Shown one piece after another: positions 1,077 to 11,628 of a stretch of 64,000 nucleotides of DNA (the stretch's first letter is position 1; each line of letters begins with the position of its first letter). Location of the stretch: NCBI RefSeq assembly GCF_030689685.1, contig NZ_JAUYEY010000101.1, forward strand, positions 1 to 64,000, given 5' to 3'. Source of the stretch: Polaromonas sp. Its GTDB lineage: Bacteria > Pseudomonadota > Gammaproteobacteria > Burkholderiales > Burkholderiaceae_C. The position numbers and the translations under genes are program-made. Below the pieces are notes generated by a model that did no database searches, was not told where the DNA came from, and was given only the letters and a program-made list of their open reading frames with translations.

Positions 1077-2273
1077 CTACACCCGTTCGAAGATGCCGGC
1101 GGCGCCTTGTCCCATCCCCACACACATCGTCACCATGCCGTACTTGAGCTGATGGCGGTGCAGCGCATGAATCACGGTTGCCGCGCGGATCGCCCCGGTG
1201 GCGCCCAGCGGATGGCCCAGTGCAATCGCGCCGCCCATGGGGTTGACCTTCGCGGCGTTCAAGCCCAGCGTGTTGATGACGGCCAGCGACTGCGCGGCAA
1301 AGGCTTCGTTCAACTCGTACCAGTCGATGTCGTCCTGCTGCAGGCCCGCATAACGCAGCGCAGCCGGAATCGCCTCTATCGGGCCTATACCCATGATGTG
1401 CGGCGGCACGCCCTTGGCGGCGTAGCTGACAAAACGCGCCAGCGGCTTCAGGCCAAATTCCTTCACCGCTTTTTCGCTGGCCAGGATCAGCGCGCCGGCG
1501 CCGTCGGACGTTTGCGAGCTGTTGCCCGCAGTGACCGAACCCCGCGCGGCAAAAACCGTTTTGAGTTTGGCCAGGCCTTCCAGCGAGGTGTCAGGGCGCG
1601 GGCCTTCGTCCAGGCTCACGGTGCGGGTTTTGCCAATCACCTCACCACTGTCCAGATCGGGCGAACGGTCTGTGACCTCGACCGGCGTGATCTCGGCGCT
1701 GAACTCACCGCTCTGCTGCGCCTTGATCGCCTTCAGGTGCGACTCGAGTGCAAACTGGTCTTGCGCCTCGCGCGACACTTTCCACTGCTGCGCGACTTTT
1801 TCGGCCGTCAACCCCATGCCGTAGGCAATGCCGATGTTCTCGTCGTTGCCAAACATGGCCGGCGAGAGCGAGGGTGAGTTACCCGACATCGGCACCATGC
1901 TCATGCTTTCGGTGCCGGCAGCAATCATCACATCGGCTTCACCGACACGGATGCGATCGGCCGCCATCTGCACTGCGGAAAGTCCCGAAGCGCAGAAGCG
2001 GTTGACGGTGATGCCGCCCACGCTGGTCGGCAGGCCGGCTAGCACCGCGCCTATGCGCGCGATGTTCAGGCCCTGCGGGCCCTCGGGGATCGCGCAGCCG
2101 CAGATGATGTCTTCAATCGCCTTGGGGTCCAGCGAAGGCACTTGCGCCAGCGCGGCCTGCAGCGCGCGCACCAGCAGCTCGTCGGGTCGGGTGTTGCGGA
2201 AAAAGCCCCGGTGCGAGCGCCCAATGGGCGTGCGCGTGGCGGCAACGATGTAGGCTTCCTGGACTTGTTTCAT
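1077..2273 (-). CDS. acetyl-CoA C-acyltransferase (thiolase)
   Basis: This is a 398-residue degradative-type thiolase that cleaves 3-ketoacyl-CoA with CoA in the last beta-oxidation step. The acyl-accepting Cys94 is in 'NRFCASGLS'. The His-containing 'GHPLGATG' and the C-terminal Cys motif 'CVGMGQGAAG' are intact. I start it at the internal ATG (2273), preceded by AAGGAA at good spacing, rather than at 2315, because 'MKQVQEAYIVAATRTPIGR' is the normal N-terminus. It acts with the dehydrogenase/hydratase and acyl-CoA dehydrogenase encoded upstream in the same direction. A DUF559 cassette separates it from the preceding hotdog gene. Confidence 0.93.
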   Translation of the reverse strand: MKQVQEAYIVAATRTPIGRSHRGFFRNTRPDELLVRALQAALAQVPSLDPKAIEDIICGCAIPEGPQGLNIARIGAVLAGLPTSVGGITVNRFCASGLSAVQMAADRIRVGEADVMIAAGTESMSMVPMSGNSPSLSPAMFGNDENIGIAYGMGLTAEKVAQQWKVSREAQDQFALESHLKAIKAQQSGEFSAEITPVEVTDRSPDLDSGEVIGKTRTVSLDEGPRPDTSLEGLAKLKTVFAARGSVTAGNSSQTSDGAGALILASEKAVKEFGLKPLARFVSYAAKGVPPHIMGIGPIEAIPAALRYAGLQQDDIDWYELNEAFAAQSLAVINTLGLNAAKVNPMGGAIALGHPLGATGAIRAATVIHALHRHQLKYGMVTMCVGMGQGAAGIFERV

Positions 2274-2324
2274 GGGTAGTTCCTTGTTTCTCAATAAGTT
2301 GGCTTGGTAGGACAAAGGCTGCTG

Positions 2325-2496
2325 CCCTCACCCTAACCCTCTCCCGCAAGCGGGAGAGGGGACTGGGTACAGGATTCGGGCCCTTCTTGCTCCCTCTCCC
2401 GCTTGCGGGAGAGGGCCGGGGTGAGGGCTGCCGTGTGACCGCGCGTAGCGCCCGTTTCCACCCTCTCCCGCTTGCGGGAGAGGGCTGGGGTGAGGG
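2325..2496. repeat. three REP-like palindromic repeats (copies A, B, C)
   Basis: Each copy has a 24-base perfect or near-perfect palindrome (CCCTCTCCCGC/GCGGGAGAGGG) with a one-sided 12-base tail ending in GTGAGGG. Palindromes are at 2337-2360 (A), 2392-2415 (B) and 2461-2484 (C). A carries its tail on the left, B and C on the right, so A points opposite to B and C. B and C palindromes start 69 bases apart, a multiple of three, so the minus-strand DUF559 frame reads through them as the same peptide twice. Confidence 0.85.
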
Positions 2497-2824
2497 TCTG
2501 CGCGACTTGCAGTATTTTTTCCAGTACTGCTTCCGTCTGAAGCAGCACGTCGTTGTTCCAGAATCGAAGTGTTTGAAAACCAAGCGCTGCCATGTCGTTG
2601 CTGCGTTTTTGGTCGCTGGAGATACCTGCGTCGGTAGCGTGCTGGCCACCATCGAGCTCTATCACCAGCGCCAGTTCCACGCACACAAAGTCTGCGAAAT
2701 AATGACCGACCGGGTGCTGGCGGCGAAACTTCAGGCCGCCCAGTTGCCGGCCACGCAACTTCGACCAAAGCAGGGCTTCCGCATCCGTTGAAACCTTGCG
2801 CAACGCGCGTGCGCGTACCCTCAC
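2333..2824 (-). CDS. DUF559 endonuclease-like protein in a repeat-bounded cassette
   Basis: The core, about residues 5-115 from the start used here, matches DUF559 (Vsr-like, PD-(D/E)XK fold) proteins: 'LWSKLRGRQLGGLKFRRQH', then 'YFADF' and 'VIELDGGQH' with the acidic residues expected of the nuclease site, and 'LRFWNNDVL'. Biochemical function of the family is largely unproven. The track start at 2887 adds residues translated from repeat D. A GTG at 2824-2822 inside repeat D is preceded by a purine-rich GGGAGAGGG at ribosome-binding distance and fits the domain edge better. The C-terminal 45 or so residues are translated repeats C, B and A, and the TAG stop is inside A. The cassette interrupts the fatty-acid operon between the hotdog gene and the thiolase. 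Confidence 0.7.
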   Translation of the reverse strand: MRVRARALRKVSTDAEALLWSKLRGRQLGGLKFRRQHPVGHYFADFVCVELALVIELDGGQHATDAGISSDQKRSNDMAALGFQTLRFWNNDVLLQTEAVLEKILQVAQTLTPALSRKRERVETGATRGHTAALTPALSRKREREQEGPESCTQSPLPLAGEG

Positions 2825-2853
2825 CCCAGCCCTCTCCCGCGTGCGGGAGAGGG
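2818..2853. repeat. REP-like palindromic repeat, copy D
   Basis: Same family as copies A-C: palindrome at 2830-2853 with the CCCTCACCCC tail on its left. Read on the minus strand it provides GGGAGAGGG followed by GTGAGGG, a ribosome-binding-site-like stretch and a candidate start codon for the DUF559 gene. Confidence 0.85.
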
Positions 2854-2883
2854 GGCCGGACGGAGCGGAGGTCTGCGAAGCCA

Positions 2884-3396
2884 TCACGGCACTGGCTTCC
2901 TCGGGCCGGCCGGAATCCAGGCCCAGACAAACTCACATTCGACCGGGTTCACGCCGACCTCGTCGGTGACAGTCACCGGCACAGTCACTTCGCCCTTGTC
3001 ACTGGCCTGCATCAAGGCGCGCTGCGCATCACTGAGGGTGGCCACCGCGCGCAAGGCGCCTGTGGCGCGCTTTTTGAACGCCATCTTCAGCTCCTTGGCC
3101 AACGGGACGCAGTCGTCGCGCACATTCATGCCGACCACCATGCCTGTGGCAGTTTCTGCCAGCAGGTTCATCGCCGAGGCGTGGATGCCACCAATGTGGT
3201 TTTGCACCTTCTTCTCGTTCTTGATGCCGATCTCCACTTGGTGGCGGGTCATCTGCAAAAAGTCGAGCCCGGCCGTGCCGGCGAAAGGCACGGCGCGGCG
3301 CAACACCACGCTGCGAAACCAGGGCCGCGCAAAAGCCGGCACTTCAGACAGCCGTTCTAGCTGCCGCTCCAGGCGGTTGGGTGTGTGATCGCTCAT
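2884..3396 (-). CDS. DUF4442 hotdog-fold protein
   Basis: A 170-residue protein of the DUF4442 hotdog superfamily, related to small acyl-CoA thioesterases. The central 'VQNHIGGIHASAMNLLAETATG' is the usual family helix region. A thioesterase or acyl-CoA-binding role in beta-oxidation is plausible from the fold and from its place directly after the hydratase/dehydrogenase gene, but the reaction has not been shown for this group. It has no signal peptide. A Comamonadaceae-type repeat fills the 114-base gap upstream. Confidence 0.8.
   Translation of the reverse strand: MSDHTPNRLERQLERLSEVPAFARPWFRSVVLRRAVPFAGTAGLDFLQMTRHQVEIGIKNEKKVQNHIGGIHASAMNLLAETATGMVVGMNVRDDCVPLAKELKMAFKKRATGALRAVATLSDAQRALMQASDKGEVTVPVTVTDEVGVNPVECEFVWAWIPAGPRKPVP

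Positions 3397-9255: not shown

Positions 9256-11628
<2,373 letters not shown>

Follow-up and report, generated by a model that had tools for sequence, protein, structure and literature searches.

A predicted nuclease of the DUF559/YcjD family is linked to boxC/PIT-type repeat motifs in many bacterial phyla

Triplex repeats of the boxC/PIT kind have been known since the 1990s and are present in hundreds of bacterial genomes; we know of no partner enzyme for them, and their rise and spread are an open question. The motif is described as boxC/PIT/TM; a G/C-rich form of this kind is present in >260 genomes, formation of a triplex in vitro has been shown for the E. coli version only, no mobility activities were ever found near it, and its origin has been called unclear (PMC4666352). 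The other described system of closest resemblance is the REP-RAYT/REPIN partnership, in which a mostly chromosomal gene for a nuclease, in this case an HUH (Y1) enzyme, lies between inverted copies of a dispersed palindrome of its own, the type of repeat follows the lineage of the enzyme, and orphan repeats and inverted pairs are also found. The palindrome of a REP is defined by a tag, GTAG or CGTC, at one of its ends (PMC3733652).

The DUF559/YcjD family (PF04480, PRK09767; 3hrl, NGO0050) is described as having an unknown function, and the portions of the literature available to us mention no association of the family with repeats. Among enzymes of related fold, the EDxHD homing endonuclease I-Bth0305I is a mobile-intron protein, and Vsr, which of the repair enzymes with this fold is the nearest, acts as a nickase on T:G mismatches; no triplex motifs are known for either. 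YcjD has earlier been placed near Vsr (PMC1189080).

In the 64,000-nt stretch of Polaromonas DNA that was analysed (referred to here as the window), four copies of the 24-nt palindrome CCCTCTCCCGCNNGCGGGAGAGGG, for which 0.02 copies are expected by chance in the window, frame a single DUF559 gene, as a sequence-only reading of this DNA had claimed. The palindromes which that reading took as the repeat unit are real, but each copy is longer and carries a G-rich tail (GGGGTGAGGG or AGGGTGAGGG), the whole unit of 36 nt consisting of a pyrimidine arm, a 2-nt loop, the purine arm GCGGGAGAGGG, a 2-nt linker and the tail. The features of the locus are as follows:

2325-2360, minus strand: putative triplex motif A, gene strand CCCTCTCCCGCTTGCGGGAGAGGG-TT-AGGGTGAGGG; palindrome 2337-2360, tail 2325-2334, directed away from the gene
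2392-2427, plus strand: putative triplex motif B; palindrome 2392-2415, linker CC, tail GGGGTGAGGG toward the gene
2461-2496, plus strand: putative triplex motif C; palindrome 2461-2484, linker CT, tail GGGGTGAGGG toward the gene
2818-2853, minus strand: putative triplex motif D, gene strand CCCTCTCCCGCACGCGGGAGAGGG-CT-GGGGTGAGGG; palindrome 2830-2853, tail toward the gene
2333-2887, minus strand: predicted DUF559 (YcjD-like) endonuclease ORF, with a PF04480 profile match
2504-2821, minus strand: DUF559 domain (PF04480) of predicted Vsr-like nuclease fold; invariant E15, D44 and E55-x-DG-x-QH (domain numbering)
2884-3396, minus strand: DUF4442-type gene, upstream in the operon (context only); its stop overlaps the DUF559 ATG
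1077-2315, minus strand: thiolase (acetyl-CoA acyltransferase) gene, downstream in the operon (context only)

All four motifs are read by the DUF559 ORF, motif D being translated near the N-terminus and motifs C, B and A as the C-terminus. The stop codon (TAG, 2335-2333) lies within motif A, and motifs B and C, which are spaced 69 nt apart, share one reading frame and are repeated in the translation, both as had been proposed. The GTG start that had been placed in the right-hand copy is indeed in frame (2824-2822, in motif D) and provides an alternative start, but an in-frame ATG at 2884-2882 appears the most likely start, since it overlaps the DUF4442 stop (TGATG) and is conserved in a relative (L175 of genome G004). 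Across loci the ORF extends into the 3' motif in 32 of 43 cases; a start codon inside the repeat was rejected as a general feature, the GTG of the tail being in frame at only 10 of 42 loci. The DUF559 gene of the window is the sole one in its 4.11-Mb genome, in which a looser core of the palindrome, CCTCTCCCN(1-9)GGGAGAGG, has 86 dispersed copies, four of them inside 600 bp (binomial p ~1e-9); for comparison, the boxC 38-mer occupies a median of 18 places per E. coli genome.

By sequence and by fold, the window protein is a direct member of the DUF559/YcjD family. It matches PF04480 with an E-value of 9e-36 (122.5 bits against a cut-off of 20.6), the family signature D..ExDGxQH is present in its alignments, and its AF2 model has a pLDDT of 88.7. 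Foldseek matches of the model include NGO0050 (3hrl; E 7.5e-9), the catalytic domain of I-Bth0305I (3r3p; 3e-4) and Vsr (1vsr; 1e-3), with ~16-25% identity to the latter two in the fold alignments, and sequence profiles agree with these matches (I-Bth0305I, hmmsearch E 3e-4). The closest folds in the PDB outside DUF559 are those of I-Bth0305I, Vsr and the restriction enzyme PvuRts1I. As modelled, the window protein is a single-domain Vsr-like protein of the PD-(D/E)XK nuclease fold, and it is predicted to be a nuclease. Matches to Toxin B chains in a search of PDB sequences (E 0.03 or worse) were dismissed as chance, and comparison with known defence models yielded only marginal PADLOC matches (E 3e-4 and 0.007), which do not assign the protein to any of them. 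Comparison with 50,697 phage records gave no match to the DUF559 nuclease, and of 72,556 plasmid records only 23 matched, a number of these being of chromosome size, which indicates that the nuclease is chromosomal.

Judged from their letters, the palindromes of the window belong to the boxC/PIT/TM class of intrastrand-triplex motifs, with which they share a palindrome plus mirrored purine tail of ~37 nt, dispersal over the genome, inverted pairs and variability among strains. In such a motif a loop joins the pyrimidine arm to the purine arm, and a short linker (usually 2-3 nt) leads on to a purine tail, which is predicted to fold antiparallel onto the purine arm (G*GC, A*AT, T*AT). The tails of the examined types mirror the purine arm and do not complement it, A being matched by A or T. 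This is directly readable in all four window copies and is illustrated by the arm and tail pairs GGGAGAGGG + GGGGTGAGGG, GGGGGAAGG + GGATGGGGG, GGGAGAAGG + GGGATGAGGG, GGGAAAGG + AGGTTAGGGG, AAAGGGGGG + GGGGGGATTT and AGGAGGGGG + GGGGGTGGT. The same rule fits types with very different letters (viz. CCCCCCTTT/AAAGGGGGG + GGGGGGATTT and CCCCCTCCT/AGGAGGGGG + GGGGGTGGTG). For 84 distinct asymmetric combinations of stem and tail, the mirror score is 649, compared with a mean of 579 and a maximum of 601 in 2000 permutations. The letters of the motif vary between lineages, and stem and tail co-vary by the triplex rule. A G-quadruplex may be formed instead of a triplex as a physical alternative; however, the position-by-position mirror matching of A with A or T is a prediction of the triplex. 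Rfam matches were all far below the gathering scores and were set aside as chance hairpins. A variant of the motif with an extra small hairpin between the stem and the mirrored tail is found at L048, L101, L103, L113, L122 and L126 (e.g., GGGGAGAAGG-TGCCCGAAGGGC-GGATGAGG).

The occurrence of the motif beside DUF559 genes was examined in 80 named loci, which were collected by scanning GTDB genomes and represent Pseudomonadota, Desulfobacterota, Chloroflexi, Gastranaerophilales, Aminicenantes, Nitrospirales, Dadabacteria and other groups. A de novo search for inverted repeats spanning the gene, with a score of at least 18 counted as positive, was applied to 72 usable DUF559 loci (L141, which matched only through runs of N, was left out) and identified such repeats at 50 of these 72 loci versus 1 of 646 other ORFs from the same loci (Fisher p ~2e-58). 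The raw control count was 2/647, from which L126:8877-9248 was removed, being itself a second DUF559 gene (E 4.9e-41). The proposal, set out beforehand, that DUF559 genes are flanked by the palindrome more often than other genes has thus held for genes of this class and palindromes of this kind. With a detector for a hairpin plus mirrored tail, the density of motifs is 4.5/kb within 150 nt of the gene, 1.0 at 150-300 nt, 0.09 at 0.3-1 kb and 0.03 at 3-10 kb, and the tail of the nearest motif is directed toward the gene in 80 cases and away from it in 21. Motifs are present at 21 of 26 strong DUF559 loci from different gammaproteobacterial families, and at none of 16 weak PF04480 matches of other subfamilies; DUF559 loci lacking the motif also occur (e.g., L021/L178). 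The common core is found in 23 of 27 genomes with a strong DUF559 versus 24 of 113 without one (p 9e-10), and genomes that lack the gene commonly contain orphan motifs (G083, G120 and G111 have 59, 78 and 27 copies, respectively). The nuclease and the motif are physically linked across many phyla. In Mesorhizobium atlanticum, two closely similar DUF559 genes (L126:8877-9248 and 9962-10333) lie 1 kb apart, both with long inverted repeats and similar neighbours, and apparently represent the tandem duplication of a larger module.

The types of nuclease and motif also co-vary. On a tree of 113 DUF559 domains, which has few columns and many open forks and for which the relatedness of the host species is a confounder, the motif type undergoes 23 changes versus 34.2 after shuffling, and none of 200 shuffled sets was as low. 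Genomes with two nucleases help against this confounder: paralogues with different motif types are found within G118, G154, G147 and G159, and GGGAGAGGG motifs accompany one paralogue and AAAGGGGGG motifs the other in both G118 and G154, the two AAAGGGGGG nucleases grouping together and with L121. In G070, whose nucleases bear the AGGAGGGGG type, this type is found 14 times, and only one other of 140 genomes contains it. Copies of the AAA type are most numerous in G047, G156, G154, G118 and G100; nucleases of this type are present in G156 (L065), G154 and G118, and the copies in G047 and G100 are not accounted for. G047 contains 39 copies of a CCCCCTTT..AAAGGGGG motif (e.g., C5:23631-23727), many of them forming REPIN-like inverted pairs 65 nt apart, and its sole detected DUF559 gene has another motif type.

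The cassette of the window lies between the DUF4442 and thiolase genes, and 14 of the 17 congeners that have the neighbouring gene contain neither cassette nor motif at this junction. The spacer without a cassette measures 37-87 nt in the 13 of these congeners measured directly, and in the fourteenth (L185), where a truncated match masks the true spacer, it is by eye similar to the others. A motif-DUF559-motif arrangement is present at the junction in the Polaromonas genome of the window (G000) and in G004, and G016 has a DUF559 gene without the motif. In the congeners L017 and L022, DUF559 is found in the same operon with other types of palindrome (CCTTCCCCC..GGGGGAAGG + GGGATGGGGG and CCCTCCCCC..GGGGGAGGG + GGGGAGGGGG, respectively), and in Variovorax (L070) it lies between a fadJ-like gene and the thiolase gene. 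The clean presence or absence of the cassette among related strains, which had been anticipated, is seen at this site, and it may reflect either gain or loss, since Variovorax has a DUF559 gene in the same operon. Near relatives mostly have DUF559 at a common site, i.e. by vertical inheritance, and transfer with ends bounded by the motifs was rejected, the pairs L104/L147 and L070/L107 having common flanks over 2.9 kb.

Three near-identical DUF559 cassettes are present in different contexts in G070 (L149, L150 and L151), where they are bounded by long inverted ends (CAAAGGTATCTACACAAGTTG...) and apparent 9-bp duplications (GTGCAGATT, GTTTGTAAC). These units are inserted into another palindromic repeat (GGTTTGTAACC). 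A conventional transposase has probably moved them, since the same ends occur elsewhere without DUF559 or motifs, and the G070 cassettes were for this reason not accepted as proof of self-mobility. The triplex motifs are not the outer ends of this sole copied cassette, and the genome of the window holds no second copy of its own. That genome does contain a small multi-copy element (L004, L005, L008 and L009, around positions 1400-1650), which in L004, L005 and L009 has the ends GGTAACTACTCAG / CTGAGTAGTTACC or close to these and an inverted pair of triplex motifs in its middle. It can be concluded from these elements that cassettes and motif pairs are mobile, but not that DUF559 is the agent of their movement.

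In E. coli K-12, ycjD (b1289, 1351407-1351760) encodes a DUF559 protein of the same class as that of the window, and the boxC version of the motif sits next to it: in its surroundings (L186, L188), intact and decayed boxC copies are located on the 3' side and a long perfect hairpin on the 5' side. The gene occupies the sapF-fabI site and is present in ~3,363 of 5,426 complete E. coli genomes. Eight ycjD-negative genomes that were inspected have an efflux operon at the site, the eefRABCD operon being known there in other phylogroups (PMC12817139), and these sites were therefore rejected as clean empty sites. Genomes with ycjD contain 13-27 boxC places and those without it 1-17 (median 20 versus 4; p 3e-10). 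However, ST69-like ycjD-positive strains (the label is inferred from a 12-nt longer ORF named in PMC12817139) have 10-15 boxC places, like their ycjD-negative relatives. Since these strains carry the gene without having more motifs, the correlation is a lineage effect and was discarded as independent evidence.

The linkage, the orientation of the tails, the triplex rule, the co-variation of types and the nuclease fold together make us nearly certain that the DUF559 nuclease and the motif have a real functional link. The reading that we favour, with a probability of roughly one half, is that the YcjD/DUF559 nuclease and its cognate triplex motifs form a partnership resembling REP-RAYT. The nuclease would recognise its own motif, probably in a single strand that has become exposed and has folded, as happens during replication, and would introduce a nick or cut in the motif or next to it. 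As the broken ends are repaired or copied, single motifs and inverted pairs would be dispersed over the genome, and the same process would keep motifs on both sides of the nuclease's own gene. Recognition, cutting and spreading by DUF559 are steps that we infer. A more specific form of this reading, which we hold more tentatively, is that a Vsr-like nuclease with an intrastrand DNA triplex as its substrate may cut its own motif and so spread or maintain both the boxC/PIT repeats and its own gene, the shape of the triplex and not its sequence being conserved across phyla. The orphan motifs in genomes without the gene, the mostly vertical inheritance, the ends of the G070 units and the motif-free DUF559 loci all speak against the favoured partnership.

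The main rival to the REP-RAYT-like reading is policing or autoregulation, in which the nuclease removes or repairs triplexes, or the breaks arising from them, and the adjacent motifs act as a sensor or operator that tunes expression to the triplex load, without any spreading. The role of Vsr as a repair nickase of the same fold is in keeping with it, as are the vertical inheritance and the position of motifs at <150 nt on both sides with tails toward the gene, which would suit an autoregulatory site. Triplex motifs also block polymerases in vitro and have been tied to genome instability (PMC4666352). A sensor, however, would have no need of two inverted copies or of motif types that differ between paralogues of the same genome, and many genomes have dozens of motifs but no gene; we consider this explanation rather unlikely. 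Fragility of the motifs could also account for the association if they capture foreign DNA and DUF559 were merely inserted there, or carried by an ordinary element derived from an insertion sequence, with no enzymatic relation. The surroundings of the motif are hypervariable in E. coli (PMC4666352), the unit that contains the G070 cassette has long inverted ends and is accompanied by 9-bp duplications, and a motif pair of the Polaromonas genome lies inside another small inverted-repeat element. Against such capture, among the genes compared only the DUF559 family is so flanked (1/646 for others; 0/16 for weak PF04480 matches), the empty sites of 14 congeners are without a motif, and neither the orientation nor the nuclease-specific motif type would be expected, which makes it quite unlikely.

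Very unlikely, in our assessment, is a selfish gene of the homing type, whose nuclease would, like I-Bth0305I, cut alleles lacking the gene, repair then copying the gene in. The match in fold and profile to the catalytic domain of that protein and the polymorphism of the site within one genus agree with homing, but the motifs are intact on both sides, with no single split site, and no motif is present at the 14 empty junctions; homing would call for a split site that is intact in the empty allele, which, supposing the motif to be the recognition site, is not what is found here. The near absence of matches in phage and plasmid records is a further point against it. Finally, the link could be purely regulatory: the motifs would do no more than signal transcription or the mRNA end for the DUF559 gene, or would contribute useful extra residues to the protein. 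Hairpins do lie near the ends of the gene, and the ORFs often reach into the 3' motif; however, other genes with ordinary terminators give no such signal (1/646), the tail GTG is seldom in frame, and earlier work found no promoter or terminator activity of the motif (PMC4666352), making a purely regulatory link highly improbable.

The REP-RAYT-like partnership that we favour shares with its namesake, by analogy and not by homology, the flanked chromosomal nuclease gene, the repeat type that follows the enzyme, the orphan repeats and the inverted pairs. The likeness to REP-RAYT that had been suggested thus stands for arrangement and co-variation but not for sequence, the nuclease having no sequence relation to RAYTs. 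The DUF559 module has a Vsr-like PD-(D/E)XK fold in place of an HUH enzyme and a motif with a triplex-forming mirrored tail in place of a tagged hairpin, and on direct reading none of the window copies carries a GTAG or CGTC tag. A RAYT was also rejected as the partner at this locus, as the window protein matches only DUF559 and, below the cut-off, MTES_1575; the single Y1_Tnp match of the genome is a RAYT-like transposase gene on another contig (L039, G000:C16:45529-45852). Since enzyme, repeat structure and end tags all differ, we regard the pairing as a new kind of repeat partnership and not as a RAYT variant, which it would count as by arrangement alone. The system had been thought possibly undescribed: the repeat is in fact known as boxC/PIT/TM and is a triplex motif, not a simple hairpin (PMC4666352), and the protein family is likewise known, but a link between the two is absent from those parts of the open-licence literature that we found, and the partnership is new as far as that searchable literature goes. 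No gene had been linked to the boxC/PIT/TM motif before, and the nuclease family linked to it here comes with motif types of quite different letters.

These results suggest DUF559 as a candidate for the long-missing enzyme partner of the boxC/PIT repeats, and the link in turn provides the DUF559 family with a candidate function. The presence of a compact nuclease of this family in E. coli K-12 (ycjD) makes the boxC/PIT question testable in a laboratory strain. If the favoured reading is true, DUF559 would be the first enzyme known to us with a DNA triplex as its natural target, and the REP-RAYT type of partnership would have arisen more than once from unrelated parts.
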